This document shows positions 41,501 to 62,887 of a stretch of 64,000 nucleotides of DNA, in pieces (the stretch's first letter is position 1; each line of letters starts with the position of its first letter). The position numbers and the translations under genes were made by a program. The notes under the pieces were generated by a model that had not been told where the DNA came from, made no database searches, and saw only the letters and a list, made by a program, of their open reading frames with translations. The stretch comes from a virus, in IMG/VR virus record IMGVR_UViG_3300042559_001081, positions 1 to 64,000 of that record; one strand, 5' to 3'.

Positions 41501-42553
41501 TTATTTTTTTAATACATCCGATAACTCTGGGATATACTTATCTATACTTTTTTTCAATATAAGATCTTGGTACTTTGTTTTTTCCACTAACATCTTATTA
41601 AGTTTGTAATTATATTTGTAATCTTTTATAAAACTAGAATTGTAATTGTTTTTATGTTTTTCTATATATTCCGGTGGCAATGAGTTTAGCGTAAATTCTA
41701 CAGGATCTTTTATAAGAACAGGATTATGTTCTAAATTAAACTCTTTACTAAAATTATTTAATTGTTCTATATTATGAAAATTATATGCCTGCACTACTGT
41801 ATGAATGTATCTCATACTTTTCTTGTTGTTGTTTTTAAAAAAATCTTCCCATTTTTCTAAATTTTTAACTACCGAGTCCCATTTACATCCATCACGTATA
41901 AATTCGTTAACTCTTTCAGTGCCGTCTATACTGTACCCAACAAAAATTTCATCTGCATTAAGTAGTTGTGTTTCGAACTTTTCTGGTGATACAGTCAGAT
42001 TTGTGTTAATGTAAAATTTTATTTTATTATCACTATGATTTTTAATAAAATTAAAAATGTTTTCTATTTCATCTGTAAGTAATGGCTCTCCACCAAGGTA
42101 TTTTATTGTATTAACCTGTGTTCCAGTAATGCTTTTTAATAATTTTTCTATATTATAGGAAACTACTCCAGCAGTTTTTAAATTATCTTCAGTTTTCTTC
42201 CAAAGACTGCTATGTTTCGGATCGCACATGCGACACCGGCTATTGCATTTATTGCTTACCGCAATTTCTAACATATCAAAGACATTTATGTCAGACTGAC
42301 AATAAAAACTATAGCTATCTCTAACAGAATGCATCCCTAGCATTTCTGTTTTCTTACACGATAAGCACCCTTTGTCCCATGAATCTCCTTCCATATTTTT
42401 TCTTATAGAAGCAATATAATCCGAATTTAAAAATTCTAAAGGTGTTAAATCATCTACTGTGTACGGACTTGTTTCAGGATATTCGCAGCAAGGTCTATAT
42501 TTTCCACTAATTTCTACACATACTTGATTATATAACGCTTTACATAAGGGCAT
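41501..42553 (-). CDS. Radical SAM protein with N-terminal twitch-like domain (family A)
   Basis: A 350-residue radical SAM protein. The N-terminal segment carries auxiliary-cluster cysteines (C4, C12, C22, C23, C63, C66; GCLSC), in the style of N-terminal twitch proteins (NF033640-type). The radical SAM cluster is C103-x3-C107-x2-C110 (NKCNSRCRMC) and KYLGGEPLL near 151-159 binds SAM. The conserved YSIDGTERVNEFIR segment is shared by all family A members in the window. Substrate unknown. Translation is coupled to the upstream radical SAM gene (TAATG). Confidence 0.88.
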   Translation of the reverse strand: MPLCKALYNQVCVEISGKYRPCCEYPETSPYTVDDLTPLEFLNSDYIASIRKNMEGDSWDKGCLSCKKTEMLGMHSVRDSYSFYCQSDINVFDMLEIAVSNKCNSRCRMCDPKHSSLWKKTEDNLKTAGVVSYNIEKLLKSITGTQVNTIKYLGGEPLLTDEIENIFNFIKNHSDNKIKFYINTNLTVSPEKFETQLLNADEIFVGYSIDGTERVNEFIRDGCKWDSVVKNLEKWEDFFKNNNKKSMRYIHTVVQAYNFHNIEQLNNFSKEFNLEHNPVLIKDPVEFTLNSLPPEYIEKHKNNYNSSFIKDYKYNYKLNKMLVEKTKYQDLILKKSIDKYIPELSDVLKK

Positions 42554-43671
42554 TATAATTCTTTCTTAAACTTTGGAATTTTACTATCTGCACTGCTTAC
42601 ACAACTAGATGTTATGCACGGCATAGGTTTGTCAAACAATTTAAATCCTGTTTCGATATTACCCAACGGAACATCGTGGCATGAATACGAACGTTTAACC
42701 GATCCATCCGGCTCTCTAATAATTATGCCCTGGTATCCTGCATTGCAACTCCAACCTTTAAAGTTATTGAAGTTAAACGCATTAAATCGTTCGGCCTGAT
42801 CCATATACCATTTTTCGCCTTTAGAGTCGGTAAACTCTACTTGCATGTGCCACGGCACAGTAGCATCATTACGTCCTATTGTGTAGTCAGGAAGTTCAAA
42901 TGTCGGAGTCGGTCTGTTTGCCCAGATACGTTTGTTTTCTGTATATGCTCGTTGTGGCATTCCGTTCCACAGTCTCTTAAGCATATCAGGAGTATAACCA
43001 TCTACTACCCTGCTAGCAGTAGGATCACTTTGTGGCTTGAGTGTAACGTTAATTCCCTGTTCGTGGAAGAATAAAGCATTTTCCCAATCCTTTTCGAACC
43101 ATTCTGGAACCATAACCATATTGATTGTAATTTGTATATCATATTCTTGACACAGGATTAACTTGTCTGCAAAATCCTGCATCTTTTCCTTTGTGTCTAA
43201 ATGTTCTGTATGCAAGCTAGCAGTAATACTTGCACGATGAAAGGGCTTAGAATATTCTACGTATTGTTCAAACCATTTCATTGGCCTTGAACAATTTGAT
43301 GTCATATGAATGGAAGTGTAATTAGTATTAGAAACATCATCAGCAAGATATTTGAGAATATCCAAATACCCAGGGTGAAAAGTAGGCTCGCCACCAGATA
43401 AACTAAAATGAAAGCTATTAAAACCGTTATCACGTGCTTGACGTTTTATTTCGTCGATTGTTTTGAGACATAGCTCTGTAGGTCGATGATCTTTTGTGTT
43501 GGATCTTGCGTACGGCCAACAATAGCTGCATCTGTAGTTGCAGAATCTTCCAAGGAGCCAAGATACAGTAAATAAGTCTCTATATAAGAGTGTCCGTTGG
43601 CCGACTTGGACAATGTCGTCAAACGGGATTTTGGTAAAGTCATAATTGCTCCATTTTAAATCTTCGGTCAT
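42553..43671 (-). CDS. Radical SAM protein with C-terminal SPASM-like cysteines
   Basis: A 372-residue radical SAM enzyme. The cluster motif is C44-x3-C48-x2-C51 (RFCNYRCSYC) and LSGGEPTF at 91-98 binds SAM. The C-terminal region has cysteines at about 309, 331, 352 and 357, suited to one SPASM/twitch auxiliary cluster. SPASM proteins usually modify peptides or proteins. The gene is first in a minus-strand unit and begins almost at the predicted transcription start, which suggests a leaderless message or a different promoter. Confidence 0.87.
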   Translation of the reverse strand: MTEDLKWSNYDFTKIPFDDIVQVGQRTLLYRDLFTVSWLLGRFCNYRCSYCWPYARSNTKDHRPTELCLKTIDEIKRQARDNGFNSFHFSLSGGEPTFHPGYLDILKYLADDVSNTNYTSIHMTSNCSRPMKWFEQYVEYSKPFHRASITASLHTEHLDTKEKMQDFADKLILCQEYDIQITINMVMVPEWFEKDWENALFFHEQGINVTLKPQSDPTASRVVDGYTPDMLKRLWNGMPQRAYTENKRIWANRPTPTFELPDYTIGRNDATVPWHMQVEFTDSKGEKWYMDQAERFNAFNFNNFKGWSCNAGYQGIIIREPDGSVKRSYSCHDVPLGNIETGFKLFDKPMPCITSSCVSSADSKIPKFKKEL

Positions 43672-43677
43672 ATTTTT

Positions 43678-43705: not shown

Positions 43706-43736
43706 TTATGTTTATATTTAACAGATAAGTATTAGC

Positions 43737-44699
43737 ATGATTTATGACGAGCTCACTCATTTTAAAAACTATGTATTTGTAGATTGGGATATAAGTAGTC
43801 GCTGCAATTACAATTGCTATTACTGCACACCCGAGTCACATGACGGAAAAATAAATTTTCCCGATATAACTGTTGCAAAAAAAGTAGTCGAAAAAATAGA
43901 GAAAGAATACAGTTCTTGTAAAGAATTTGCAGTGTATAATCTTTTAGGTGGAGAACCTACTATATGGAATGATTTGCCAGAATTTAGCAAATATATCAAA
44001 TCTATTAACAACAAAAATATATTACAATTGTTGACAAACGGCAATAGAACACTAAGATGGTGGGAAAATTCTGCACCATACATAGATAAAATTATTGTTA
44101 GTGTGCATGTTGCACAAACCGATATTGTTAAATTAGTAGAAAAGTTTAACAAGCTAGCAGATAAAATCTATATAGACTTTCAATTTGCAATGGATGTTGC
44201 AGTGTTTGATCAAGCCGTTGAAGATTATTATTATGCTTATAACAACCTGCATGAAAATATTTGTTTATATTCTAAGCCTTTACGGAAAGTGTTAAATAAC
44301 ACCGAATTGATGCCATATACAGAATTGCAAATTGAAACTATTAAAAAGTTACCATCTAAATGGAGCAGATCTATCGAAATATTCGAAACTCCTATGGTTA
44401 AAAAGCTTAACGGAACAGTTGTAGACCCTGCTGTTAATATTGGTAAATTAGTTTTATCAAAAGAAAACAACTGGTACGGATGGGCTTGTTGGATTGGCAT
44501 AGATACTATTACTATTAATCGATACGGAAATGTTAAAATAGGTTCTGGTTGCAACCCCGACCTAGTGCTCGGTAATATAAATTCTTTAGATTTTAAATTT
44601 CCACTGATTCCTGTCAAGTGTAAATATACTACTTGTGGATGTTTTGCTGATATATCTACAACAAAAAAATTAAACTACACAGGACCTATGATTCTTTAA
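43737..44699 (+). CDS. Radical SAM protein with SPASM-like C-terminus
   Basis: A 320-residue radical SAM protein divergent from the previous one. The cluster motif is C23-x3-C27-x2-C30 (SSRCNYNCYYC) and LLGGEPTIW at 69-77. Cysteines at about 251, 272, 295, 300 and 302 could hold an auxiliary cluster. It lacks the twitch N-terminus and the family A middle motif. The 3' end overlaps the convergent B12-type gene by 4 bp. Role unknown. Confidence 0.87.
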   Translation: MIYDELTHFKNYVFVDWDISSRCNYNCYYCTPESHDGKINFPDITVAKKVVEKIEKEYSSCKEFAVYNLLGGEPTIWNDLPEFSKYIKSINNKNILQLLTNGNRTLRWWENSAPYIDKIIVSVHVAQTDIVKLVEKFNKLADKIYIDFQFAMDVAVFDQAVEDYYYAYNNLHENICLYSKPLRKVLNNTELMPYTELQIETIKKLPSKWSRSIEIFETPMVKKLNGTVVDPAVNIGKLVLSKENNWYGWACWIGIDTITINRYGNVKIGSGCNPDLVLGNINSLDFKFPLIPVKCKYTTCGCFADISTTKKLNYTGPMIL

Positions 44700-46174
44700 T
44701 ATAGCTTATTAAATTTTTCTAAATGTGCATTTACGATTTTTTCCATATGTGAATTTTTGCCATATACTTCGTTTATTAAATTCCATATTTCCGATATTCT
44801 CTTCTTTCTGACTTCCGGAGAATTGTCTTTATACTTCCAATTAAGAGAACTATTATAATATTCTAAATCGTCCTTTATAGTCTCATAAATTATAGAATCC
44901 TTATCTAATATCAATGTATTTCCGAATCCAAAATGAATTAGTGGAGTTTGCGAGTAATCGCCGACCTTTGTATCAAGATATCCTATCTCTTTTAATTTTC
45001 TAATAGTGTCTAATGTTATCTTGTGATCTTCATCTGTTTCAGTTGGATATCCAACTATCATTAGCAAACTGTGTTGTATTCTATTTTTTTGAAGTTGTTC
45101 AAGGCAAAACCACATATCTTCATCTTTGATCTTTTTACCCATATGAAATCTAACACTTTCACTAAAGCTTTCTAGTCCAACATCAAGTCCGTGACATCCG
45201 CTATCTTTCATTAACTGAAAATCCTCTGCTGTACACTGTGATTGAGGTCGCATAATCCATTGACTGCTCCAAGTAAAACCAGGGTCTGTTTTTCTATATT
45301 CTTTTAATAAATTTAGTAATTCTCTAAATGTTTTCATACTTCCGTTTATTAAGCTATCGGTAAAATGAAAATCTGTTCGGTTCCAGAGTTTACGAATTTC
45401 TACTATCTCAGTAAAAATACTTTTAGCAGATCTAAATTTATACTTCGGCCAAAGTCGATGTATATCGCAAAATGTACAATTTTTAACACACCCTCTACTT
45501 CCAGTTATGTAAACAGTTTTTCCGTTTTTAAACCTGTTAGGATATAAAGTCCATTCTATATCGCTATAGTCAGGTATTAGTACAGTTGACAAATCTTCAA
45601 CTTGGTGTGCTTCGTCTGAGTTAATTCCAGGAGCAGACACATTACCTTTTAATAATTCAACTAAAGAAAATTCTGCATCTCCGTGTATAAAAAAATCAAT
45701 CAAACCTCTATTGAGCGGATACTGAGCTCGATAACCACGAACGTCGGCGCCGCCCCAAATAATCTTTGTGTTAGGTAAGTATTTTTTTATTAACATAGAA
45801 AAGTAAATTGCAAAAGTTCTACTATACTCAGTTAGCAAACTCATGCCTACAAATCTTGGTTTTAATTTTTTTAAATCGTTAATAACACTATTTGTCCAAT
45901 TTTTATATTTTTTAAGAAAAATTTTATGTTCTTTTTCTAAAGAATAATCCCACTCGGTTACAAATATTTTATCATCATTTTTAAAGAAATACTTTTCTTT
46001 TTCCTCATCGGACATTATATTATACAATTGTATATTTAGGTCTATTATTTTGCATGAAAATCCTTCTGCAGAAAGATGACTTTTAAGAATTGCCGGACCT
46101 ACTGTAGGAGCATATGGATCTATTTTTGGTATTACTAATATTGCTATATCTACCATTTTATATATCTTTTCCAT
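44696..46174 (-). CDS. B12-binding-type radical SAM protein (family C)
   Basis: A 492-residue protein. The N-terminal 200 residues have the layout of a cobalamin-binding domain (AYAPTVGPAILKSHLSAEGF-like region, a GGADVRGY turn and HGDAEFSLVELLKG), without an obvious DxHxxG ligand motif. The radical SAM cluster is C229-x3-C233-x2-C236 (GSRGCVKNCTFC), followed by DIHRLWPKYKFRS. B12-dependent members perform methylations or ring rearrangements. A close paralogue is at 47966. The start overlaps the end of the gene upstream on this strand. Confidence 0.85.
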   Translation of the reverse strand: MEKIYKMVDIAILVIPKIDPYAPTVGPAILKSHLSAEGFSCKIIDLNIQLYNIMSDEEKEKYFFKNDDKIFVTEWDYSLEKEHKIFLKKYKNWTNSVINDLKKLKPRFVGMSLLTEYSRTFAIYFSMLIKKYLPNTKIIWGGADVRGYRAQYPLNRGLIDFFIHGDAEFSLVELLKGNVSAPGINSDEAHQVEDLSTVLIPDYSDIEWTLYPNRFKNGKTVYITGSRGCVKNCTFCDIHRLWPKYKFRSAKSIFTEIVEIRKLWNRTDFHFTDSLINGSMKTFRELLNLLKEYRKTDPGFTWSSQWIMRPQSQCTAEDFQLMKDSGCHGLDVGLESFSESVRFHMGKKIKDEDMWFCLEQLQKNRIQHSLLMIVGYPTETDEDHKITLDTIRKLKEIGYLDTKVGDYSQTPLIHFGFGNTLILDKDSIIYETIKDDLEYYNSSLNWKYKDNSPEVRKKRISEIWNLINEVYGKNSHMEKIVNAHLEKFNKLY

Positions 46175-46781
46175 TATTTAATAAGCTATGATACCACCCG
46201 TTTGGTCGGAGACACCCTCTTCTATTTGTATAGTCTATATTATGTAAATCTAAAAATTGTTTTATTTGTAAACATAATTCGTTGTATTTGTCTTGATTAT
46301 TTGCAAAAAATAAAAATCCCTTGTATAATAATACAGGATATAGTTCTTTGTTATTTATGCACACACTAATGTCAACAGTTCGTGTTAGTTCTGCACCGAA
46401 CCCACATATTGCCATACAAGTTTTTTTAAATTGTTTGTTTAAAAAATATGTTTTGTAATCTATGTTATAGGCATCAGTAAATAAAAAATCAAGAGAATTG
46501 CTATTAAGATTAGAAGTTCCATCTCCTATGTCTATAGTCAGATTCGGTATTTTTTGTTTCCACGACTCGTATAAAACTAATAATCTTTCTTTTTCTACTT
46601 GTTGCTGAGAATCTTGAAAGTTTTCATAAAAGCTTAACGTGTTAAGAAATTTTGCTTTATTTAAAAAACAACTGCATATATCTTGCCCATCGTATATTCC
46701 AATCATTGCTGAATTTTTAAACAATTCTGATTTGGATTCGATTAAATTTGCTATTAAATTATATTTTATTGTTGGTATCAT
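46158..46781 (-). CDS. Unrecognised 207-aa protein in the radical SAM cluster
   Basis: It begins MIPTIKYNLIANLIESKSEL at the ATG at 46781. A strand DFLFTDAYNIDYKTYF near residue 100, with several cysteines (about 6), suggests a possible methyltransferase-like Rossmann region, but no SAM motif is visible. It may instead be a substrate-carrying or scaffold protein. It lies between two radical SAM genes on the minus strand. Function unknown. Confidence 0.5.
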   Translation of the reverse strand: MIPTIKYNLIANLIESKSELFKNSAMIGIYDGQDICSCFLNKAKFLNTLSFYENFQDSQQQVEKERLLVLYESWKQKIPNLTIDIGDGTSNLNSNSLDFLFTDAYNIDYKTYFLNKQFKKTCMAICGFGAELTRTVDISVCINNKELYPVLLYKGFLFFANNQDKYNELCLQIKQFLDLHNIDYTNRRGCLRPNGWYHSLLNNGKDI

Positions 46782-46792
46782 TTTAAAGTTTT

Positions 46793-47902
46793 TTATAAAT
46801 TTACTTTCATGTTTTGTTCTTGTTCTCGTTTTACAATGCCACATGTTTTAATGCACCTAGGTATTACATTATCATCACCCCAAGATTTTTCTAACTCTTC
46901 AGAAAAGAATTTATGCAATAATATTTCTGCCCATGATTTATCTTTCAAAGACAACTCTGTAAGAGGATATTTTAATTCGGCTTCTGAAAATTTTCTAAAA
47001 GATTCGTTGTCATCACTTATATAACAACACGGAAATACTTCTAGTCTGCTATTTACATATATCTTTTTTGCTTCTTGATATATGCAAGATATTTTCCATT
47101 TGGAGAGTTTTTCAACCGGATTGTAATTTCCTGTGGTAAATTCAGTTACTGATAGTTGGTTGTTTAGTGATTCCATAATTTCATCATGAGAATGTGTACT
47201 TTTAGATCTAACTATAGATTTCATAGTGTCATGACTAGGATGTCGCAAATCTTTTTGAATAGGAGGTTCGAGATAGTGTGTAATTTCTTTTTTAGAATTC
47301 ATAACAGGAAAAGGATCAAAGTTATCAAACCGCGGAGTTCGACGTATTCTAAAATCGTTAACACCAATTTCGGATGCTATATTTTTACATTTTTCAATCT
47401 CATGTTCGTTATGCTTAAATGCTAAAAAGTCCCATCGTACTTTTACAGAACCTTTGCAGCATATTTTCATATGAGAAAGTATTTTATTAATATGAGTATT
47501 TTGTCTGTACAAATGGTTAGTTTCTATACCATCAACCCCGAAAGTTATTCTATCATTTTTATCTAAAATTTCTACTAATTTTTCCCACCAGCTATCTGTT
47601 TTGAGACTTCCATTTGTAAATATTTCAATGTTTAGATTTCTGCTTTTAGCTTTATATATTGCTTCAAATAAATATCTCGAAGCAATAGGATCACCGTGTG
47701 TTCCGCAAAAATAAACACGTTTTAGATTTGGCAACTCTTCGGAAAATACTTTGTCTATGTCCTCTAACGACCACTCCGTTAATCCAAGTCCTGGTCGGTC
47801 TACGGATCCAAATATATTTCTATTACACATAGGACAGGATGCGTTACATTTGTTTGTAATCTCTACATGCATCTCTTCTATTGTGTCAGTTCTTAAAAAC
47901 AT
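46793..47902 (-). CDS. Radical SAM protein, MoaA/SPASM-like (family B)
   Basis: A 369-residue protein. The cluster motif is C19-x3-C23-x2-C26 (NKCNASCPMC). In place of GGE it has CGTHGDPIAS. The middle GVDGIETNHLYRQN is shared with the other B members. The C-terminal half has VFPCCYI and C350-x3-C354 (RCIKTCG) for an auxiliary cluster. MoaA/SPASM-like enzymes often modify peptides or purine-derived substrates. This member has no A partner next to it; its nearest neighbour is a B12-type gene. Confidence 0.87.
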   Translation of the reverse strand: MFLRTDTIEEMHVEITNKCNASCPMCNRNIFGSVDRPGLGLTEWSLEDIDKVFSEELPNLKRVYFCGTHGDPIASRYLFEAIYKAKSRNLNIEIFTNGSLKTDSWWEKLVEILDKNDRITFGVDGIETNHLYRQNTHINKILSHMKICCKGSVKVRWDFLAFKHNEHEIEKCKNIASEIGVNDFRIRRTPRFDNFDPFPVMNSKKEITHYLEPPIQKDLRHPSHDTMKSIVRSKSTHSHDEIMESLNNQLSVTEFTTGNYNPVEKLSKWKISCIYQEAKKIYVNSRLEVFPCCYISDDNESFRKFSEAELKYPLTELSLKDKSWAEILLHKFFSEELEKSWGDDNVIPRCIKTCGIVKREQEQNMKVNL

Positions 47903-47915
47903 GTTTTTTAAATCC

Positions 47916-47965: not shown

Positions 47966-49480
47966 ATGACTGATATAGTCTTTCTTACTTTACCAAGATT
48001 AGAACTTAGAGCACCGATAACTGCTCCTGCATTGTTAAAATCGATGGTTGAAAAGCATGGATATACTGCATTTTGCTATGATTTAAATCTAGATTTGTGG
48101 CACAGTATAGATGCATCTACCTACGGACATGTTTGGTTTGACACTGATCTAACATTTAGATACGAAGACAAGTTTAAAGATTTTTGGAATTCGCATATCT
48201 TGCCGTGTGTACCAAGATGGATTGAAACTATTAAATCTAAAAATACATCGTGGGTTGGGATTACTATTTTTAGTCAAAGAAGTAAGTGGATTAGTATTGC
48301 AATATGCGAATTATTACGTAAAGAATTGCCTGAAGTAAAGATTGTAGCAGGTGGTCCTTTTTGCGAATTTACCGGGCCGCTGCTATATGAAAAAAATCTA
48401 GTTGATGCTTATGTAGTTGGCGAAGGCGAACTTGCTATTTTAGATATCCTTAGAGGAAATTTTTCAAATCCTGGAATAAATGGCAATGATCCTGTACAAA
48501 TTGAAGATTTAGATACTATTCCTATTCCGGATTATAGTGATTTTCCAATGGAATTATATCCAAAAACTTGGTATGATCCAAGAATAAAAGATCACGACAA
48601 ATTAGGAACAGAATTTGTATACATCACTGGCAGTAGAGGATGTGTAAGAAAGTGTACATTTTGTGATATACAAAGTGTTTGGCCAAAGTTTAGATTTAGA
48701 AGTGGTATTAGTATAGCAACAGAAATGTTAGAACAAAATCAAAAATACGGAAGTAAAAGATTCTTGTTTACTGACAGCTTGCTAAATGGAAGTGTTAAAC
48801 AGTTAAAGGATATATGCACAACTCTTATAAAAAATAAAAAATCAGGGCGTATGACTCATGTAAATTGGCAGGGACAGTTTATTGCACGTCCAGAACATCA
48901 AATGTCAGAAGAAGTTTATTCATTAATGTACGAAGCGGGCCTTAGATTTGTAAGCATCGGAGTCGAAAGTGGTAGCGAAAAAGTTCGAAACGATATGAAA
49001 AAAATGTTCGACGATTCTGCTATGGACTTTACATTTAACATGTGTGCAAAGTATAAAATAGAAATGGCCTGGTTATTGCTTGTGGGGTATCCGACTGAAA
49101 CAGAGGAAGAGTTTCAAAAAACACTTACTATGCTAGAAAAGTACCAATGGATTAACCAACAAGGGCTAATACGTAGCATTGCGTTAGGTCCAACGTTAGA
49201 TATAGTTCCAGGATCGCCACTTTACAAAAATCAAGAAAAATTAGGAATTACTTGGGACTCAAACAATCATTGGGTATATAAAGATAATACTCGAGAGATT
49301 AGAATTAAGAGATGGCTTAGATTAAAAGAAAAATGCATAGAGCTCGGATATCCAGTCGTAGAAAAAGCAACAGATCATCTTTTAGCCGAATTAGAAAAGA
49401 TAACTGCACAAAAAAGTCAAGTAAACCATATTTACGATCATTATAATGAATTATCTGGAGCAATGGGGCCTAGCGTATAA
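47966..49480 (+). CDS. B12-binding-type radical SAM protein (family C)
   Basis: A 504-residue paralogue of the 44696 gene. The N-terminus (MTDIVFLTLPRLELRAPITA) and GEGELAILDILRGN near 152-165 fit a cobalamin-binding-like domain, and the cluster is C226-x3-C230-x2-C233 (GSRGCVRKCTFC) with DIQSVWPKFRFRS following. The first gene of a plus-strand unit with an oxygenase, two QueC-like proteins and a family A radical SAM gene. Confidence 0.86.
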   Translation: MTDIVFLTLPRLELRAPITAPALLKSMVEKHGYTAFCYDLNLDLWHSIDASTYGHVWFDTDLTFRYEDKFKDFWNSHILPCVPRWIETIKSKNTSWVGITIFSQRSKWISIAICELLRKELPEVKIVAGGPFCEFTGPLLYEKNLVDAYVVGEGELAILDILRGNFSNPGINGNDPVQIEDLDTIPIPDYSDFPMELYPKTWYDPRIKDHDKLGTEFVYITGSRGCVRKCTFCDIQSVWPKFRFRSGISIATEMLEQNQKYGSKRFLFTDSLLNGSVKQLKDICTTLIKNKKSGRMTHVNWQGQFIARPEHQMSEEVYSLMYEAGLRFVSIGVESGSEKVRNDMKKMFDDSAMDFTFNMCAKYKIEMAWLLLVGYPTETEEEFQKTLTMLEKYQWINQQGLIRSIALGPTLDIVPGSPLYKNQEKLGITWDSNNHWVYKDNTREIRIKRWLRLKEKCIELGYPVVEKATDHLLAELEKITAQKSQVNHIYDHYNELSGAMGPSV

Positions 49481-55238: not shown

Positions 55239-56448
55239 TTTGTTTTACCTTAGTTGCCCAATTTGCTAATTCTGGATTATAATCATAAATGTTAAATCCT
55301 CTTAGAGAATTAATATAATCGATCCATCGCAATGCATGAGAATTGTCTTCATCAGTTGCCGAATATTTTAAAGTCTTTAATCTTTCTGTTCTTTCAAAAA
55401 TTATAGGATTTTTTAAATATTCTGTATTGTTAAAAAAATCATTTACTAATCTATCTATGTCGTTTTGTGGAACGATACTATATGCAGAATACTTTGGAAG
55501 AAAAACATAGTAATAAGCAAATACATCTACTAATCCTGTTTTTAACAACTCGTTTGCTGATTCCTTAAGAGTCCATAATGTATAGAGTGAAACTGTACTA
55601 CTTGCTATAACTCTTTTTCCTGTTCTTCTTAAATATGTTTCCATATTTTCAAGTGTTTGTTCATAAGGAGTACTACGTATCCATTCGTAGATTTTTCCTG
55701 TGCCGTCAAGACTTGCAGTAACTAATAATTCAACATTGGGATTTTTATTTAACTTTTCTAAAATGTCCCAAATTTCTTCTGTAATTACTGCCCAATTAGA
55801 AACAATTAAAATACGCATTTCGTATTTTTTATCTACAATTTCTTTTAAAACTCTTATATTTCTTGGATCTGCAAAGGGCTCGCCCCCTTTAATAAGTAAA
55901 AACTTAATCGACGGTAACACTTCTAAAATCTTTTTCATGTCGTCGTCGGTGGCCTGGAAAGCCTTTGTATGTAAGTTTGATAATCCAGAATTTTCTCTAA
56001 ATTCTAAACCTTCTTTTTTTGCACGTTTATCTAGTCCTATCCATTTACTGCTATAGATACTTCCGCACATAGCACAGCTTTGATTACATAAGTTACTTGG
56101 AGTATACTCTAGTGATAAAATTTGCTTTCTCGAAGAATTAAAATTTTCATCCGACCAAGGAAGATTAACATAATGATCGTTGTCTATATGGGCAGGAATT
56201 CCATTTTCTCTATTGTCTTTGCAAGCTACACATGCACTTGGCCATTCACCTTTTTTAAATTTATTACGAATGCCATTTATTATGTCATTGTTGTAATAGT
56301 CAGTTAATGATGCTACCTCGCTAATATATGACCCGTGTTTTTTGCCAACTGTGCATAATTTTAAATCTCCCAATGGACCAATGTTAAGTTGGCTCCACGG
56401 GGCTTTACACATCATCGGTCTACGAGATTGATATTCTTTATCAGACAT
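55228..56448 (-). CDS. Radical SAM protein with N-terminal twitch-like domain (family A)
   Basis: A 406-residue family A protein from MSDKEYQSRRPMMCKAPWSQ. N-terminal cysteines C14, C32, C73 and C76 (SACVACKDN). The radical SAM cluster is C121-x3-C125-x2-C128 (NLCNQSCAMC); LIKGGEPFA follows. The middle ASLDGTGKIYEWIRST fits family A. An alternative ATG at 56478 would add 10 residues inside the PLP gene. Confidence 0.87.
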   Translation of the reverse strand: MSDKEYQSRRPMMCKAPWSQLNIGPLGDLKLCTVGKKHGSYISEVASLTDYYNNDIINGIRNKFKKGEWPSACVACKDNRENGIPAHIDNDHYVNLPWSDENFNSSRKQILSLEYTPSNLCNQSCAMCGSIYSSKWIGLDKRAKKEGLEFRENSGLSNLHTKAFQATDDDMKKILEVLPSIKFLLIKGGEPFADPRNIRVLKEIVDKKYEMRILIVSNWAVITEEIWDILEKLNKNPNVELLVTASLDGTGKIYEWIRSTPYEQTLENMETYLRRTGKRVIASSTVSLYTLWTLKESANELLKTGLVDVFAYYYVFLPKYSAYSIVPQNDIDRLVNDFFNNTEYLKNPIIFERTERLKTLKYSATDEDNSHALRWIDYINSLRGFNIYDYNPELANWATKVKQNAR

Positions 56449-57316
56449 TATATCCCCTTGCGTCAAATCTATTATCAACTAGCATTCTTAAAGGAGTTCT
56501 AACACTTACAAAAGTTCCATTATGAGATGCAATATTTATAGAATCAGTTTCTTCTAATTTAAAATCTTTGCAAACTTTTGTATATTCTTTATTATAATTT
56601 TTCCACCAAAAGTCCGAGCCAAACCTGTCTATCATATTACACCCAATCCACATGTCGCTTACGTTATTATATCCAAAGTTATTCATAATATTTATAGGAC
56701 CATCGATTTGTTCTTTACTGTATCGAACACCAATTCTTTGAGATCCCATCGAAAAGGCTTTACTTAGGCTAATTGAAAACGTCTTGATAGCAGAATGTGA
56801 CAAATCTATATCAATGTTTTTACACTGTCCTAGCCATGCTGCATCTATGTGAACGTCGATAGAGTTTTTGTAACAAAAGTCTAAGAGTCGATCTATGTCG
56901 GGTATATTCCCTGCTGTTTTAACAGAAGGATAAGAAATAACTAGAACTGATCCTGACGGTATTGCAGAATAATGTGTTACTTTTAAAATTTTTGGATTTA
57001 ATCTCCAATGATATGCATACTCGCCTTCGAATATTACTAACTTATTACTGTATCTGTAATGCAGTTCGTCTATTTGCTGTGAAACACCTAATATAGCATC
57101 AGTAAATTTAAAAGACTCTAAATTTTTAATATTATTTAATTTAGAATTTTTAATCCAAGCTGTAACTTTTTCTATAAAGTATTTTGTATATTGATTGCTA
57201 TCTGTTGGATATTCTTTCATATCTAGAGAATCTCGAAACCCAATAATTTTACCAACTAACATAGGAGGAATTCTAGATGTTAAAAACTTTTCTACACTTA
57301 AGTTATTATAATCCAT
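56441..57316 (-). CDS. PLP-dependent aminotransferase-like protein
   Basis: A 291-residue fold-type I PLP enzyme candidate. VHIDAAWLGQ holds the cofactor-binding Asp (about residue 158) and SISLSKAFSMGSQR the Schiff-base Lys (about 186). It is shorter than usual (about 400), with a short N-terminal part. It might aminate, decarboxylate or desulfurate a pathway intermediate. It lies between two family A genes with overlaps of 8 and 11 bp. Confidence 0.78.
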   Translation of the reverse strand: MDYNNLSVEKFLTSRIPPMLVGKIIGFRDSLDMKEYPTDSNQYTKYFIEKVTAWIKNSKLNNIKNLESFKFTDAILGVSQQIDELHYRYSNKLVIFEGEYAYHWRLNPKILKVTHYSAIPSGSVLVISYPSVKTAGNIPDIDRLLDFCYKNSIDVHIDAAWLGQCKNIDIDLSHSAIKTFSISLSKAFSMGSQRIGVRYSKEQIDGPINIMNNFGYNNVSDMWIGCNMIDRFGSDFWWKNYNKEYTKVCKDFKLEETDSINIASHNGTFVSVRTPLRMLVDNRFDARGYNV

Positions 57317-58673
57317 ATACATCGCCTTTTAACAATGCCCATGTTTTTTCGCATACATCTTTTAGTTTTTCTTTTCTTGACTTATCTAATGTATTTGTAT
57401 AATACCAAAACTTTTCTAAATCTTTAGAATGATCTTCTGAGTTCATAAATTTTATATATTGATCTAATATCTTACAAAAATACTTAAAGTTTTCCGATTT
57501 TTCTTTTTCGGTTAAATCTAGCAACGAAATCTCTGCTTTAGCTTCAATCTTTTTTTGTTCAAAGTAATTTTCTATCCACTGCTTACTTTCTTTTGGAAAT
57601 ATTTGAATATTTAAGAACTTTGGATTATGTAAAGGATGCGGACTTATTACCGGCTTGTGTTGCACCTCAACATTAATTCTTTTAAATTTTTGTTTGATTT
57701 TCCAAAGCATCATATCAGGCAAGTGAACTAGATTATATGCTTGTATAGTAGCAGCCCACCATATTTTAAAATCTCCTTCAGCAGCGTCTAATTTTCGCAT
57801 ATTTTCTTCTATCTTGTGCCATTTGCTAGGATTTCTTATATAATCGTTTATTGGTCCTACAGCATCAACACTCATTCCAATTTGTATACGTTCAAAATGC
57901 TTCCAAATATTCCAAGCACGTTCTGGAATATTAGTAATATTTGTATTGTATTCTATCACAATAGATTTAGATCTTCCGGCATCTATGCACTTTTGTAAAA
58001 ACTCGTAATGTTGGTCTATTAATAAAGGTTCCCCTCCAACGATGTATAATCGTTCTATTGTAGGAATTTCTTGTTCCATTTCCTTCCAAAAAGCAGGCTT
58101 TTCGTACCAAGAATAGATATCAACTTCGGGTTTATGCTTTCCGTTTGCTGTTTTTATTAATTTTACAGTTTGCCCGCTATCTTTATATTGATTTCCCCAA
58201 AGCAATACGTTGTCATCGTACCACTGACTGCTATCTGTAGGCCCACACATTCTACATTTTAAATTGCAAAGATTTCCAAAACGAAGATCCATGTATTTTA
58301 TAGGATTTTCTTCTAAATCAATTGATCCATCTTGCTTCGTTTTTGATATGGCATCTTCTTTATTAATTACATGAGCCCATATATCTCTTTCCCAACTAGC
58401 TCTACTTTCCATTCCTGATTCTGCTTCACGTTTACATCTAATGCATGATTCGTGATATTCATTATTTAACATAGCTAATCTAACTTCTTTCATTAGATTG
58501 CTGTTTCTAAATCCGTGTATAGTTTCAGTTGATAGGTTGTAATTCGATCCTGTTTCTGTTTTTACTAATCCCTGATTAATACTAACATTTGCATTACAAC
58601 ATATTCTTACATCGCCGTTATTTCTTACATTTAAACTCATCCACGGCAGTGGACAAAATGCGTTATTTTCCAT
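57306..58673 (-). CDS. Radical SAM protein with N-terminal twitch-like domain (family A)
   Basis: A 455-residue family A member. N-terminal cysteines: C7, C25, C26, C77, C80 (SCIRCKREAE). The radical SAM cluster is C136-x3-C140-x2-C143 (NLCNLKCRMC), IVGGEPLL at 211-218. The middle motif SVDAVGPINDYIRNPSKW is shared closely with the 60384 protein (SIDAHGEHNDYIRYPSQW). It forms a tight A-B pair with the 58688 gene (14-bp gap). Confidence 0.9.
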   Translation of the reverse strand: MENNAFCPLPWMSLNVRNNGDVRICCNANVSINQGLVKTETGSNYNLSTETIHGFRNSNLMKEVRLAMLNNEYHESCIRCKREAESGMESRASWERDIWAHVINKEDAISKTKQDGSIDLEENPIKYMDLRFGNLCNLKCRMCGPTDSSQWYDDNVLLWGNQYKDSGQTVKLIKTANGKHKPEVDIYSWYEKPAFWKEMEQEIPTIERLYIVGGEPLLIDQHYEFLQKCIDAGRSKSIVIEYNTNITNIPERAWNIWKHFERIQIGMSVDAVGPINDYIRNPSKWHKIEENMRKLDAAEGDFKIWWAATIQAYNLVHLPDMMLWKIKQKFKRINVEVQHKPVISPHPLHNPKFLNIQIFPKESKQWIENYFEQKKIEAKAEISLLDLTEKEKSENFKYFCKILDQYIKFMNSEDHSKDLEKFWYYTNTLDKSRKEKLKDVCEKTWALLKGDVYGL

Positions 58674-58687
58674 TTATAAATCCTATA

Positions 58688-59737
58688 TTAAGAAAGTTGC
58701 TTATCGTTTTTATTTTTTCCATGTCCGCTACTAAACTCAAATTTTTTGCCACAAGTTCTACCGCATGTATATATTCTTTTAAATGTATCGTCTTGATTAT
58801 TCCAGGAATTGTGTAAATATGAATTAAAAAAGTCATGTTTTAGTACATCCCAACCGTGTATTCTCATATCATTAAAACTTTCCCCATAAAGATTTTTTAT
58901 ATGATCAAAGCTAGGTTGTTGTTTGTTTTTATGATGGAAGTAACTTGGGGCCCCAAGCCAACAACACGGCCAAAGTTTCATCGTCATATCAACAAAAACA
59001 GTTTTATCAATTTTATATTTACAGCTAATCGGTGTTGTTAAAACATAATTTTCAAAATCTTTAATTGAATCTTTATCTTTCTTGTTATGATTAGTAGGAG
59101 TATCCTCAACAACGTTGCCTTTTTTTGTAACAGTATTTTTTTGATCTTGATCTGCAAAACGAGCAGTATATTTAACTGTGAATTTTTTAAATCCAAGACT
59201 GTTTGCTAAGTTTTGTGCTTGTTCAATTTGATGATAGTTGTGTTGAAACTCTATAAATGCCCATTCTGCATGGCCCCCGGCCGAAATAAATGCTTCTGCA
59301 TTTTTAATTATTTTATTAAAATCACTACCAACTCTGTATAATTGATTTGTGTCTTCTAATCCGTCAATACTAAAAATAATTGACAACTTTTCTGCTGACT
59401 TTTTGGCTAATTCTGCCCACCATTCTGGCTTACGCATACTTCCATTTGTTGCAATTCTTACATGCTTTACATTTTTTGTTAAGCAATATTCATGAGCTGC
59501 GTCAAAGGTAGGACTTGCAATCACATCGCCGTAATTTCCGCAATGAAAGATTGTTACCTGATTCTCTTTGAAAGGTTGCAAAATTATCTCATAGTCTGAT
59601 ACAGTTAGATCAGTTATTGGCATGCTAGGATTTAATGTATTGTTAAACATCCTAGCACATTGAGGACATGCACAATTACATCTACTTGTATGATCTATTT
59701 GTATTTTTTGAATTTCTTCTAAATTTAAATAGTTCAC
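58688..59737 (-). CDS. Radical SAM protein, MoaA/SPASM-like (family B)
   Basis: A 349-residue family B member: C20-x3-C24-x2-C27 (SRCNCACPQC), CGNYGDVIAS in the GGE position, SIDGLEDTNQLYRVG, LWPCCWLG and a C325-x3-C329 end (YTCGRTCG). It lies between the A member at 57306 and the QueC-like gene (4-bp overlap). Confidence 0.9.
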   Translation of the reverse strand: MNYLNLEEIQKIQIDHTSRCNCACPQCARMFNNTLNPSMPITDLTVSDYEIILQPFKENQVTIFHCGNYGDVIASPTFDAAHEYCLTKNVKHVRIATNGSMRKPEWWAELAKKSAEKLSIIFSIDGLEDTNQLYRVGSDFNKIIKNAEAFISAGGHAEWAFIEFQHNYHQIEQAQNLANSLGFKKFTVKYTARFADQDQKNTVTKKGNVVEDTPTNHNKKDKDSIKDFENYVLTTPISCKYKIDKTVFVDMTMKLWPCCWLGAPSYFHHKNKQQPSFDHIKNLYGESFNDMRIHGWDVLKHDFFNSYLHNSWNNQDDTFKRIYTCGRTCGKKFEFSSGHGKNKNDKQLS

Positions 59738-60387
59738 AGTCTATCAAATCCCCATCGACGTTCAGCACAAAACCAGCAATTACCACAATGTTTTTCAAAG
59801 TTGTCAGTGTATTTCTCACAACTTCTAGTCATAGGAAATAATGTATCAAAGACATTAAAATAACGGTACAATTCTGCTACATCTCTTTTATTAAAGTTAA
59901 TCAATGGATGACATGCCGTTCCTTCGTAGATGTTTTTTAGTCTTTCTCTGTCTGGTGGATCAGTCCATCCTCGCCAATATACACTTCTCGGTATTGCGTT
60001 TTTTGGAGGATTTTGTGTTATTCCAGCAAAATGAAATTGAATTTTATTGTTTTTATATAAGTTATTAGTTAATAGTTGTTGTGTTTTAATATAATTTTCA
60101 TCTTCTGGCAAAGGGCTATATGCTGTCTCGTGTTCCAAAAAAATATCGCCAAACTCTTTTTTATAAAACTCGACTATTTTTTTAGCAAACTGAATTTGAA
60201 AAGCTTTGCCTTCTTGATCAACAGTTATTGGAACAATTTTTAAGTCAGGCCTTTCTTCAACTACATATTTAGATAGTATGTATCCTGTAATTGCACTATC
60301 TGCACCCCCTGAGATTTTTAATCCCACAGATGAAACATTATTAAAAACTACAATATTTAGATTGTGTTTGCTATGAGGAATTATCAT
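59734..60387 (-). CDS. QueC-like PP-loop ATPase 3
   Basis: A 217-residue protein, very near the length of QueC (about 220-230). SGGADS at residues 26-31, KISGGADSAITGYIL. The C-terminal TRSCEKYTD (C190) and HCGNCWFCAERRWGF (C201, C204, C207) match the QueC zinc motif, including the HCGxCxxCxxR spacing. It is the best QueC candidate of the three. The overlap with its neighbours (4 bp on both sides) suggests that it is translated together with the two radical SAM genes. Confidence 0.82.
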   Translation of the reverse strand: MIIPHSKHNLNIVVFNNVSSVGLKISGGADSAITGYILSKYVVEERPDLKIVPITVDQEGKAFQIQFAKKIVEFYKKEFGDIFLEHETAYSPLPEDENYIKTQQLLTNNLYKNNKIQFHFAGITQNPPKNAIPRSVYWRGWTDPPDRERLKNIYEGTACHPLINFNKRDVAELYRYFNVFDTLFPMTRSCEKYTDNFEKHCGNCWFCAERRWGFDRL

Positions 60388-61799
60388 TGTAAAATCTCGG
60401 TAAAGATAGGAAAAACTTTTAAAAATTTATCTTCCCATTGTCGTTGTTTGTTAATAAGAGATATGTATTCTTTTGTTTCTGGTAATCTTTCCGACCAATC
60501 TTCACTGTTCATAAAATTTATAATACCTTTGAATCTTTTAATTCCGTAAGGATTTTCTAAAAACTGTTCTTTAGAAATGTTGTTTTCTTTTACTCCAGTA
60601 AACTGTTGCCAATTGTCTTCTATCCATGGATAAAAATCGTTTTCGTATTTGTCTGTAATTTGTTTTTTAACATTTTTCGGCAATACTTTTACATTTAATT
60701 GAGGAGGCCAGTACGCAAAGTGCATGTTTATGCCGCCGGCTCCTAGTGGCCAAGAATTTATCTTTTTAAAACCTTGTTGAGTTTTCCATTTTACAAACTC
60801 CGGTATATAAGCAATATTAAGAGCCATTATAGTAGTTGCCGTTGTTACTTCAACTTGAGGTGCAGTATTGTCTAGTTTCCAAAACACTTCTTCCTGGTGT
60901 TGCCACTGACTAGGATATCGAATATAATCATTGTGTTCTCCGTGTGCATCTATACTATAATGAAATCTAACACGTTTAAACTCTGCCCATAGATCAAATA
61001 AATCACTACGCCATTCAACTGCATTGCTATTGTAACGTAACTCTATATTCTTTGCATACCCACGTCTAATGCATTCTTCTAATAGATCATAATGTTCATC
61101 TATAATAAGACTTTCGCCTCCGGCAAAGTATAGTTGATACATATGAGGAATTTGTTCAAACAAGTCTTGCCAGAATTTTGGATTATTTTTATGCCAATTA
61201 TAGCTAGCACCGTGTACTCTGCCTTTATTTTCCCACTGACTAGTACCTTTTAATCTTTCATTTGTTATTTGAGGGTACAAAGAATTCCATTCTTTTACCC
61301 AGCCGCTCGAATCGTGAGGACTACACATTACACAAGCAAGCTGACACTTTGTACCCATACGCAAGTCAATATACCGTATTTTCGGGGGTATAGAACCGTC
61401 AGCGGCAGTTTCATTAACTAATTCTTGTAGGTCAAAGCGGCTTGCCCAATAATCGGTTTCCCAATTTCTTTTACTAAGATGTCCAGCTTCTTCTTCTTTG
61501 TAACACTTTAGACAACTAGCAGGCTTTTCGCCACGAAGCATCATCTTACGAACATTACGCATATATCCGCTGTTCCATGCTTCTTCTAGGCTAGTATGAT
61601 TAAAATTAGCAGGAACGCCCGAGTCGTTCTTTACGACTCCAACTTCGCCACCACCGATTTTGTTACTGCTGTCTGGATCTTGAACACTGCTGGCGTTACT
61701 TGTGCAACATGTTCGCATTTTTCCATCCGGTCTACTTGATAAGTGTAGCCACGGCAATGCACAAAAGGTAGGCGAAATATGATTGTATTTTTCTGACAT
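60384..61799 (-). CDS. Radical SAM protein with N-terminal twitch-like domain (family A)
   Basis: A 471-residue family A protein, the longest. N-terminal cysteines: C13, C31, C32, C96, C99 (SCLKCYKEEEAG). The radical SAM cluster is C152-x3-C156-x2-C159 (TKCQLACVMC), FAGGESLI at 225-232: the P of GGEP is replaced by S. The middle SIDAHGEHNDYIRYPSQW matches the A motif. It pairs with the family B gene at 61808 (8-bp gap). Confidence 0.9.
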   Translation of the reverse strand: MSEKYNHISPTFCALPWLHLSSRPDGKMRTCCTSNASSVQDPDSSNKIGGGEVGVVKNDSGVPANFNHTSLEEAWNSGYMRNVRKMMLRGEKPASCLKCYKEEEAGHLSKRNWETDYWASRFDLQELVNETAADGSIPPKIRYIDLRMGTKCQLACVMCSPHDSSGWVKEWNSLYPQITNERLKGTSQWENKGRVHGASYNWHKNNPKFWQDLFEQIPHMYQLYFAGGESLIIDEHYDLLEECIRRGYAKNIELRYNSNAVEWRSDLFDLWAEFKRVRFHYSIDAHGEHNDYIRYPSQWQHQEEVFWKLDNTAPQVEVTTATTIMALNIAYIPEFVKWKTQQGFKKINSWPLGAGGINMHFAYWPPQLNVKVLPKNVKKQITDKYENDFYPWIEDNWQQFTGVKENNISKEQFLENPYGIKRFKGIINFMNSEDWSERLPETKEYISLINKQRQWEDKFLKVFPIFTEILQ

Positions 61800-61807
61800 G
61801 TTAATAC

Positions 61808-62887
61808 TTATTTAAACTGTTCTGCAAAAGGATCAAACTCGATACCACATTTCATAGCACAAACTTTTAATTTTCCATTTTCGTAACTGTTTTCATGCCA
61901 CGACGCTTCTATAAGATCAAAAATTTCTGTAGAAAATACACGTTCTAAACCATGTATCTTAGCATTTATTGCATCTTTGCCGCCGGCAAAATTAATAAAT
62001 TGCCATATTTGTTCTTGTTTAGGATCTTTTTGCCACCATTTGTACATTCGACCAGCAGTCCAACAACAAGGCATTGCTATCCCTTCTGCTGTAATAAACA
62101 AACTGCCTTCGTCTTTTACCTTGCATCTGATAGGAGTTTGTTGATAGTAAGCATCCATGCTTCCGTATTTTATTTCTAACAATGTTTGCTTCTTTAATGC
62201 ATTGTTTACATATTTGTCATCGGGCTTTTTAAGTTCGGTTGTTTGATTACCTTTTCGATCAATTGCTTGGTGTGATTCTTTTTTCTTGCTATCTTGCGTA
62301 ATAAATCTACCAGTTTTTTTAGCAACAAACTTTTCAAAGCCTAATTCCTTTGACAACGCTTCTGCGTCTTCGACCTGATGTTGGTTATGTTCAAATATTA
62401 AAAAATCCCAACGTGCTCTGCCGCCGGCTGCAATAAATGCTCGCATACTACGTTCGACTATATTCCAGTTAACACCTTGACGATACAAATGATTTGTATC
62501 ACCGAGTCCGTCTACACTAAAAATAACAGTACCTGCTCTTCCAAGTATAGTTGCAAGTTCTTGCCACCATTCGGGATCACGGGCGCCAGCATTTGTATTC
62601 ATGCTTAACCACATCTTAGGATTATTTTGTCTAAAATAGCGAAATATTTCTAGTGTGTCTCGAGCAACAATTGGATCTCCTAAATTACCGCACATATACA
62701 TGGTGTTTAGCTGTGCTATAAATTCCGGTGTGAATATTTTTTTACAATCATCGAGTGTTAGTTCACTTAAATCTATATGAGGATTTAGTGCTCCGCCGTT
62801 TTGATTACGGTCACACATAGGGCAACTAGCTTGACAGTTTTGTGTTACTTCTAAGTGTATGGTTTTTATATCTTTATATTCATACAT
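61808..62887 (-). CDS. Radical SAM protein, MoaA/SPASM-like (family B)
   Basis: A 359-residue family B member: C18-x3-C22-x2-C25 (QNCQASCPMC), CGNLGDPIVA replacing GGE, SVDGLGDTNHLYRQG, MPCCWTAGR, and C343-x3-C347 (VCAMKCG). It overlaps the small 62880 gene by 8 bp. Confidence 0.9.
   Translation of the reverse strand: MYEYKDIKTIHLEVTQNCQASCPMCDRNQNGGALNPHIDLSELTLDDCKKIFTPEFIAQLNTMYMCGNLGDPIVARDTLEIFRYFRQNNPKMWLSMNTNAGARDPEWWQELATILGRAGTVIFSVDGLGDTNHLYRQGVNWNIVERSMRAFIAAGGRARWDFLIFEHNQHQVEDAEALSKELGFEKFVAKKTGRFITQDSKKKESHQAIDRKGNQTTELKKPDDKYVNNALKKQTLLEIKYGSMDAYYQQTPIRCKVKDEGSLFITAEGIAMPCCWTAGRMYKWWQKDPKQEQIWQFINFAGGKDAINAKIHGLERVFSTEIFDLIEASWHENSYENGKLKVCAMKCGIEFDPFAEQFK

Follow-up and report, generated by a model that had tools for sequence, protein, structure and literature searches.

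A radical SAM-rich locus in a T4-like jumbo phage and its relatives, with a conserved core, a variable interior and counterparts in Bdellovibrionota

Introduction

Bacterial capsule and O-antigen loci combine an exchangeable interior with fixed flanking genes. Among enzymes of the radical SAM (rSAM) class, we know of no function for the subfamily N_Twi_rSAM (NF033640). Phage genomes rich in rSAM genes have been described: the marine T4-like genome TARA_ERS488813_N000010 is given 12 of them (PMC5332604), and the host recognition clusters (HRC) of pelagimyophages contain rSAM cassettes (PMC7029224). Here we analyze a window of 64,000 nt, positions 1 to 64,000 of the IMG/VR record IMGVR_UViG_3300042559_001081. 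This record covers part of the genome of a T4-like jumbo phage; a marine origin is suggested by its relatives, not by sample data.

Results

Composition of the locus

The first-pass annotation had read fourteen proteins with CxxxCxxC motifs between positions 41,501 and 62,887, and all fourteen are confirmed: each ORF (named below by its first coordinate) contains exactly one such motif and matches PF04055 with E ≤ 3.9e-4, and together they occupy 16,923 of 21,387 bp. The features of the locus and its edges are as follows.

40358..40939, minus strand: Asp/Arg-hydroxylase-type oxygenase beside the locus (PF05118 5e-10)
40953..41483, minus strand: SDR-like protein beside the locus (PF00106 0.0037, under cut-off)
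41501..42553, minus strand: variable rSAM, family B, N-terminal twitch (PF04055 5e-11; NF033640 200 bits, above cut-off)
42553..43671, minus strand: core C rSAM, C-terminal SPASM/twitch-like cysteines (PF04055 1.2e-15); far bracket of the variable region
43737..44699, plus strand: variable rSAM, family C (PF04055 3.6e-9)
44696..46174, minus strand: variable B12-binding rSAM, family D (PF04055 8e-17, PF02310 3e-8)
46158..46844, minus strand: protein inside the locus, without Pfam match
46793..47902, minus strand: variable rSAM, family A (PF04055 3e-9); groups with a bacterial-bin protein in the tree (100/100)
47966..49480, plus strand: variable B12-binding rSAM, family D (PF04055 2e-15, PF02310 3e-9); 63–68% to Bdellovibrionota proteins
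49489..50199, plus strand: putative oxygenase, without Pfam or convincing PDB match
50201..51007, plus strand: QueC-like PP-loop ATPase, without Pfam match of its own; 29% to 51016 and 59734, E 1e-24
51016..51771, plus strand: QueC-like PP-loop ATPase (PF06508 7.9e-5); 39–44% to Bdellovibrionota proteins
51755..52939, plus strand: variable rSAM, family B, N-terminal SPASM (PF04055 8.7e-13; NF033640 304 bits)
52903..54012, minus strand: variable rSAM, family A (PF04055 2.2e-5, under cut-off); invariant cysteines of family A retained
54015..55238, minus strand: variable rSAM, family B (PF04055 2.6e-8; NF033640 133 bits, under cut-off)
55228..56478, minus strand: variable rSAM, family B (PF04055 5.2e-8; NF033640 195 bits)
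56441..57322, minus strand: putative PLP-type enzyme, without Pfam or PDB match; homologs (33–36%) in Bdellovibrionota loci L102, L125 and L144
57306..58673, minus strand: variable rSAM, family B, SPASM (PF04055 2e-6, under cut-off; NF033640 368 bits)
58688..59737, minus strand: variable rSAM, family A (PF04055 1.8e-6, under cut-off); 54–56% to Bdellovibrionota proteins
59734..60387, minus strand: QueC-like PP-loop ATPase (PF06508 1.5e-6)
60384..61799, minus strand: core B rSAM, N-terminal twitch (NF033640 414 bits); AF2 model retrieves rSAM folds
61808..62887, minus strand: core A rSAM, C-terminal auxiliary-cluster cysteines (PF04055 2e-6, under cut-off)
62880..63107, minus strand: T, 75-aa conserved protein of the phage core (69 of 80 loci; alignment)
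63787..64000, minus strand: C-terminal end of M, putatively methyltransferase-like (by eye), the gene running to 64635 past the window (76 of 80 loci)

Nine of the fourteen exceed the Pfam cut-off for PF04055. Of the five under it, 57306 and 60384 score 368 and 414 bits with the NCBIfam model N_Twi_rSAM, and 52903, 58688 and 61808 are homologous to 46793, itself above the cut-off. Ten of the proteins were scanned with N_Twi_rSAM (curated cut-off 170 bits): five pass (41501, 51755, 55228, 57306, 60384), 54015 remains below (132.6 bits), 42553, 46793 and 61808 score far lower, and 44696 has no match. The profile search proposed in the annotation further yielded SPASM domains in 51755 and 57306 and a B12-binding domain joined to the rSAM domain in 44696 and 47966, as well as in 76485 beyond the window. 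Of the fourteen, 60384 is the one ORF modelled for fold: the AlphaFold (AF2) model (pLDDT 76.5) has a predicted partial TIM barrel and retrieves rSAM enzymes in the top 46 of 50 structure-search rows (Z ≤ 7.9; Foldseek best E 1.5e-3). A PDB sequence search with core B gave no relatives, and weak matches only were obtained for cores A and C. The catalytic cysteines are conserved and the locus is under purifying selection, with dN/dS of 0.007–0.241 over 48 gene pairs (identity window 70–99.5%, three saturated pairs of 51 removed).

Across the 138.7-kb record, PF04055 matches at E ≤ 1e-3 are confined to the window cluster and to 77.3 and 83.4 kb, and 67193-68719, beyond the window, has a weak match (6.5e-4); the total is 17 rSAM ORFs, 14 in the window cluster and three further out. 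Candidate T4-type late promoters (TATAAATA) occur at 11 sites across the record.

The accompanying enzymes of the first-pass annotation fared unevenly. The three QueC-like ATPases are retained, 51016 and 59734 by PF06508 and 50201 by homology only; 37762 is an additional weak PP-loop match. Of two 2OG oxygenases, 40358, just outside the interval, is supported by PF05118, and 49489 is not supported by Pfam or by a convincing PDB match. The same searches give no convincing match for the PLP enzyme (56441), and neither a Pfam nor a convincing PDB match for the sulfotransferase (63104, outside the interval). For the dehydrogenase, 40953 has a weak SDR match and 39008 is a homospermidine synthase; both lie outside the interval. 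The cluster indeed adjoins a tail-fibre-type gene, as had been read: a fibre gene of the Mtd_N type stands on one side of the island, and more fibre-type genes (identified by eye) on the other.

Conserved core and variable interior in related phages

Core A has 292 relatives on viral contigs, of which the best 80 (74–100% identity) provided the loci compared; 20 whole records were drawn from the same 80. Each of the 20 records examined contains 6–22 rSAM matches. The conserved order is G–M–T–core A (61808)–core B (60384), followed by an exchangeable stretch, chiefly other rSAMs and QueC-like ATPases, and then core C (42553). Core B is present in 21 of 21 phage records and core C in 20 of 21, copies or near-copies (G000/G001; G004/G006/G007) included; in all 20 records having both, C lies downstream on the same strand, 2.7–17.7 kb away. 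Among the 80 loci, which are not independent, nor are the records, because L009 and L018 copy the present locus and several others are near-duplicates, A is found in 80 (selection criterion), M in 76, G in 73, B in 70, and T in 69. Both copies were also included in the 37 full loci of the clustering comparison. Counting only members inside set length limits, the 80 loci comprise 18 clusters of family A, 55 of B, 9 of C, 6 of D and 19 of QueC-like proteins, the core one included.

The core is fixed and the interior variable. A fixed linear pathway of 14 steps was rejected, as recurrence is limited to the core and the other genes differ between phages. What stands of the multi-step locus first suggested is a real multi-enzyme rSAM locus that recurs in relatives, rather than one fixed 14-gene pathway. 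The annotation would have been refuted by an unconserved order with scattered genes, and this applies by half: the whole gene order varies, with the genes staying clustered within the conserved bracket.

From 285 unassigned ORFs in the relatives' loci 63 representatives were scanned, at least 40 of them having no Pfam match. The 20 families matched include CTP_transf_3, DegT aminotransferase, FkbM methyltransferase, sulfotransferase, tryptophan halogenase, AMP-binding (one match), amidotransferase, Asp/Arg-hydroxylase and ATE_C, and no ketosynthase or condensation-domain families.

A search for precursor peptides in 27 phage loci returned T (with antisense reads), one antisense-type read (3 loci) and an ORF of about 115 aa on the fibre side (3 loci), and in 19 bacterial loci no small ORF (20–120 aa) is common to three or more. 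Hence, T and the fibre-side ORF aside, these 19 bacterial and 27 phage loci contain no conserved RiPP precursor gene; an unconserved one would escape such a search. T was rejected as a precursor peptide because it is conserved over its full length.

Glycosyltransferase setting

The model of protein G has a predicted GT-A fold, with Z of 9–10.5 to glycosyltransferases among the matches listed; nucleotidyltransferases score nearby (MobA, Z 9.3). G also has a (D/N)GD motif of the DGD type, the second D being invariant across 12 sequences, and sugar transfer is predicted from the fold together with this acidic DxD-like motif. The phage island carries a UDP-sugar dehydrogenase and an epimerase.

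The bacterial setting is likewise glycosyltransferase-rich. In six of eight Bdellovibrionota genomes, family-2 glycosyltransferases (GT2) lie no more than 5 kb from a core rSAM, the expectation being about 0.08 per core within 6 kb if even spacing is assumed; the core contig of the other two has none. In G025 the GT2 is next to core A alone, B and C being about 20 kb distant. GT2 make up 11 of 74 bacterial neighbouring proteins, among the matches listed (first 25 of 85 families), the 74 being drawn from the 10 loci, of 12, that yielded any, with family-assigned proteins excluded and many ordinary chromosomal genes included.

Counterparts in Bdellovibrionota

Bdellovibrionota are a bacterial phylum known for predators. 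Cores A, B and C occur together in all ten core-B genomes of this phylum (eight picked via core-A matches, two from an even draw), and core C in none of 16 comparison genomes without core B (five chosen as orphan family A matches, 11 from the core-B-negative list). The even draw for core B gave 5 positives of 114, three being seeds, and core C is present in 22 of the 368 Bdellovibrionota genomes scanned and in none of 398 Pseudomonadota (the phylum of Defluviimonas) or 193 Myxococcota (the phylum of one bin); in this draw and these scans only the best few candidates were scored in some genomes, and part of the phylum scans ran without a positive control.

Core C is 57–67% identical to its Bdellovibrionota orthologs. 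It is also found on contigs labelled Gammaproteobacteria (L100, 68%) and Acidimicrobiaceae (L105, 62%), which may be phage contigs or reflect a wider range of core C. The family A tree forces at least eight phage/bacterium label changes, a count that may be overstated because L100 and L105, kept as bacterial, may be phage contigs. Tree rows were thinned at 80% identity, and L094, L095, L096, L130 and L133, judged likely to be phage contigs (L130 on little evidence), were dropped from the bacterial side. Homologs of M (34–43%) and of 40953 (28–37%) are present in Bdellovibrionota loci; a PDB sequence search with M gave no match.

Discussion

Our preferred, still tentative, reading is that the locus makes a surface glycoconjugate by means of a conserved core and interchangeable tailoring enzymes. 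Protein G, with its predicted GT-A fold, would act with M, T and the three core rSAMs (A, B and C) to assemble a common scaffold or attach it. The enzymes between cores B and C (SPASM/twitch and B12 rSAMs, and QueC-like ATPases, which probably amidate) would tailor this scaffold phage by phage, and so may the oxygenases, sugar-nucleotide and glycosyl-transfer enzymes around the core. As to product, location and use, we infer display on the infected cell, which would change the receptor and exclude rival phages, or on virion fibres.

SPASM/twitch enzymes of known function act mostly on peptides or proteins, and the rSAMs might instead modify tail-fibre proteins or a ribosomal peptide, by crosslinking, epimerisation or methylation, with the variable set matching variable fibres. 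The SPASM/twitch architecture, the adjoining fibre-type genes, peptide maturases as NCBIfam secondary matches, a PDB sequence match of core C to an anaerobic sulfatase-maturating enzyme (9e-5), and CteB, EpeE and anSME among the nearest solved folds listed for core B all point this way. We still consider it unlikely, as no small ORF is shared by three or more of the 19 bacterial loci, T is conserved over its whole length, Bdellovibrionota have the core without phage fibres, and G and GT2 would be left unexplained. Several of these nearest folds act on peptides, the GT-A fold is common to nucleotidyltransferases such as MobA, and the neighbouring Asp/Arg-hydroxylase and ATE_C families would fit protein modification; these observations count against a glycoconjugate. 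No polysaccharide polymerase, flippase or ligase was identified among the genes scanned.

A diffusible small molecule, antibiotic-like or a signal, made by phage-infected cells and Bdellovibrionota alike would agree with the abundance of tailoring enzymes and with the variable phage neighbours that match tryptophan halogenase, AMP-binding, DegT and amidotransferase families; it is improbable given the glycosyltransferase association and the lack of ketosynthase and condensation domains in the 20 families, where the one AMP-binding match leaves some room. Hypermodification of nucleic acids by QueC-like and rSAM enzymes, similar to 7-deazaguanine phage DNA, seems very improbable. QueC-like ATPases do occur in the phage and among 2 of 74 unassigned bacterial neighbouring proteins, and weak QueE-like rSAM matches exist; against it, the rSAM families fit N_Twi_rSAM or other types better than QueE, and the locus sits with fibre-type genes, away from the DNA polymerase (10.5–13.1 kb). 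Of the folE-queD-queE-queC set, only QueC-like members appear among the proteins scanned (part of the record's genes).

The glycoconjugate reading can be extended to a modular chemistry, where the three core rSAMs make a radical-derived scaffold, dozens of interchangeable rSAMs diversify it combinatorially, and cassettes are exchanged between phages and Bdellovibrionota, perhaps because the phages infect these bacteria or because the two depend on one shared cell-surface product. We regard this extension as possible, if rather doubtful; if true, it would be categorically new, comparable to a serotype locus based on radical chemistry. A surface-diversifying role would explain many rSAM genes of uncultured phages. 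The three rSAMs and the GT-A-fold protein offer a testable core for a large uncharacterised pool of viral radical enzymes, tied to a phylum of bacteria that includes predators; their many natural variants would help assign each change to its enzyme.

Comparison with known systems

As in the first-pass annotation, no characterised counterpart of the locus was found. TARA_ERS488813_N000010 resembles the present phage in being T4-like, marine and rSAM-rich; the source, as far as available, gives its rSAMs as an Fe-S protein count, with no core, bracket or bacterial counterpart (PMC5332604). The HRC of pelagimyophages and cyanomyophages are, in the available part of their description, large hypervariable islands with tail-fibre genes, glycosyltransferases and rSAM cassettes (PMC7029224). 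The present island has these features, its glycosyltransferases being assigned mainly by the predicted fold of G and by eye, and differs in its number of rSAM matches (as many as 22 in a record of its group), in a conserved three-rSAM core that brackets a variable part, and in having Bdellovibrionota orthologs. In Mosig EXVC030M, three genes annotated as molybdenum-cofactor (MoaA-like) lie between fibre and VrlC/baseplate genes. Against the GenBank phage set, core A matches at only about 22% identity, core B at only 24–26%, and core C has no match.

Five of the 14 ORFs belong to N_Twi_rSAM above the cut-off, families A, C and D being other types. Capsule and O-antigen loci share with this locus the fixed flanks and swappable interior; here the interior is mostly rSAM enzymes, and no flippase or polymerase was identified among the genes scanned. 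The three-rSAM core, its bracket and the Bdellovibrionota link were not found in the published literature, where rSAM-rich marine phages had already been described.

Radical SAM genes and their families

All fourteen open reading frames that the first-pass annotation had taken for radical SAM (rSAM) proteins are present at the starts listed below, each with a single CxxxCxxC motif and each with a match to PF04055 (14/14), nine of them passing the curated cut-off. Together they occupy 16,923 of the 21,387 bp in the cluster. The paralogs are mostly 20–37% identical, yet their cysteines are invariant, and the PF04055 scores combined with this invariance make chance untenable as the origin of the matches. 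The whole viral record (138,699 bp, the window being its bases 1–64000) has 16 PF04055 matches, all at 41–84 kb, with a weak 17th in the frame 67193–68719. By BLAST, the fourteen proteins were divided into families A–D; three QueC-like ATPases are interspersed with the rSAM genes.

Families of the rSAM genes (start coordinates)
Family A: 46793, 52903, 58688, 61808 (core A); rSAM, then auxiliary-cluster cysteines
Family B: 41501, 51755, 54015, 55228, 57306, 60384 (core B); N-terminal twitch domain, NCBIfam NF033640 (54015 below its cut-off)
Family C: 42553 (core C), 43737
Family D: 44696, 47966; B12-binding domain

Alignment of 20 family A sequences shows invariant C18, C22, C25, C274 and C343, and that of 24 family B sequences, invariant C13, C31, C96, C99, C152, C156 and C159 and a GGE motif. 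In a structural search with core B as modelled by AlphaFold (pLDDT 76.5), rSAM enzymes fill the top 46 of 50 rows, with Z not exceeding 7.9.

The island extends to about 87 kb in a minus-strand continuation, several proteins of which lack a Pfam match, and is flanked on both sides by fibre-type genes.

Island continuation and flanks
35592: fibre-type gene (Mtd_N, below its cut-off)
Continuation to about 87 kb, minus strand: 2OG oxygenase, UDP-sugar dehydrogenase, epimerase, B12-rSAM
69607–70647 of the source record G000 (L089:7607–8647): amidinotransferase-like protein by eye (PHROG 25854, function unknown)
87.7–95.7 kb: fibre-type genes, by eye

The record encodes a T4-like portal protein, which shares about 49% identity with its counterpart in jumbo phage Atu_ph07, and a 330-kb contig (L018) holds the same genes at 100% identity. 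Upstream of the fibre genes lies a metallopeptidase/VWA-like protein (DUF2201, 32775–34061), and a phage homospermidine synthase at 39008–40357 (PDB 2ph5, E 1e-106) overlaps the end of a PP-loop protein (37762–39033).

Conserved core and variable genes in related phages

A search of viral contigs gave 292 relatives of core A. Among the best 80 of these (74–100% identical) the order G-M-T-A-(...)-B recurs, G, M and T being a predicted GT-A-fold, a methyltransferase-like (by eye) and a 75-aa protein, respectively; A is found in 80 loci, M in 76, G in 73, B in 70 and T in 69, and most remaining genes differ between phages. The 37 loci longer than 21 kb have 6–12 rSAM genes (median 9), and twenty whole records, 6–22 rSAM matches each. 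With the core ones counted, clustering yields 18 clusters in family A (60% identity), 55 in B (50%), 9 in C, 6 in D and 19 of QueC-like proteins.

Core B is present in 21/21 records and core C in 20/21, the source record among them, a contig end cutting it in G018 and G019; the sole record without it, G014, stops about 6 kb beyond core B. By coordinates, the distance from core B downstream to core C is 2.7–17.7 kb in 20/20 records with both, and the two genes share a strand in each. In five locus pairs, dN/dS of rSAM, QueC-like, G and M genes is 0.007–0.241 across the 48 of 51 gene pairs that gave finite values.

Bdellovibrionota counterparts and possible gene exchange

Scanning a genome collection (one genome per species, 84,980 species) with the family A alignment gave 250 relatives, of which the best 79 distinct loci were retained. 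Bdellovibrionota have orthologs of core A (44–50% identity to phage), core B (52–61%) and core C (57–67%), often clustered with G- and M-like genes; one contig (L098, 493 kb) carries ordinary chromosomal genes. All ten genomes with core B have cores A and C, counting one with a partial core A (G026), two with a split core C (G028, G130) and two with core A located apart (G025, G072). Genomes without core B have no core C (0/16), and six of the 16 have a lower-scoring family A gene.

Core C was found in 22/368 Bdellovibrionota genomes, and scans run without a positive control gave 0/398 in Pseudomonadota, the phylum of G031 (Defluviimonas), and 0/193 in Myxococcota, that of the bin G033. That core C also occurs on sequence assigned to Gammaproteobacteria (L100) and to Acidimicrobiaceae (L105) speaks against strict restriction to Bdellovibrionota; these may be misbinned phage contigs. 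Both carry core A along with core C. Loci L094–L096, filed under bacterial MAGs, show the phage order G-M-T-A-B and resemble phage sequence misassigned during binning.

On the family A tree the phage label requires 12 changes, at least eight of which well-supported branches make unavoidable. The phage core A sequences are monophyletic (100/100) and fall together with Bdellovibrionota core A in a larger group (98/92). The tree topology suggests repeated exchange of these genes between phages and bacteria.

Filamentous cyanobacteria carry orphan family A rSAMs with neither core B nor core C in the locus (L137, L139, L140, L142, L143, L146–L149, L152, L153, L157–L159, L161), in most cases directly preceded by a 242-aa ORF. 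In Bdellovibrionota, polytopic membrane proteins, HTTM-like by eye, adjoin rSAM genes (L141, L163, L101, L144); a Pfam scan of the 319-aa one in L163 gave zero matches.

Possible function

We tentatively favor, at slightly under an even chance, a surface glycoconjugate in which a common scaffold is altered by swappable tailoring enzymes, because of the fold and motif of protein G, the proximity of GT2 genes and the Pfam families of the neighbors. The model of G (pLDDT 87.9) has a GT-A fold, with Z of 9–10.5 against glycosyltransferases and nucleotidyltransferases close behind, and the (D/N)GD motif is conserved. Gene G (64616–67189 of the source record, beyond the window; L089:2616–5189) encodes seven TEMFW-type motifs, acidic pairs being retained in the first and last copies only; protein length (about 226 to 1250 aa) and copy number differ between phages. 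In six of eight Bdellovibrionota genomes a core rSAM has a GT2 gene no more than 5 kb away, the expectation being about 0.08 per core within 6 kb (134 GT2 matches in 26.5 Mb), and 11 of 74 neighboring bacterial proteins have GT2. Among 63 representatives of unassigned phage neighbors, Pfam matches point to three Asp/Arg hydroxylases and two cytidylyltransferases, and there are single matches to Trp halogenase, DegT aminotransferase, FkbM methyltransferase, sulfotransferase, ATE_C and others; Pfam gives nothing for at least 40.

The main rival is modification of a protein or peptide, which the known chemistry of SPASM/twitch enzymes suits well, but a search for a precursor found none.

Comparison with known systems

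The locus is real, widespread and variable among phages, with a conserved core of which we found no published description. The passages of PMC9301287, PMC9902471 and PMC11317156 consulted here do not describe the present system, nor did searches of open-licence papers yield a description of the three-rSAM core or its sharing with Bdellovibrionota. The chemistry of the locus may be categorically new. Its genomic kind has already been noticed, as rSAM cassettes in host recognition clusters: according to PMC7029224, that of pelagimyophages is hypervariable, averages 44.6 kb and holds glycosyltransferases and rSAM cassettes, with O-chain modification against co-infection proposed. A 183-kb T4-like genome has 12 rSAM genes (PMC5332604), and Mosig EXVC030M has an analogous, smaller cluster.
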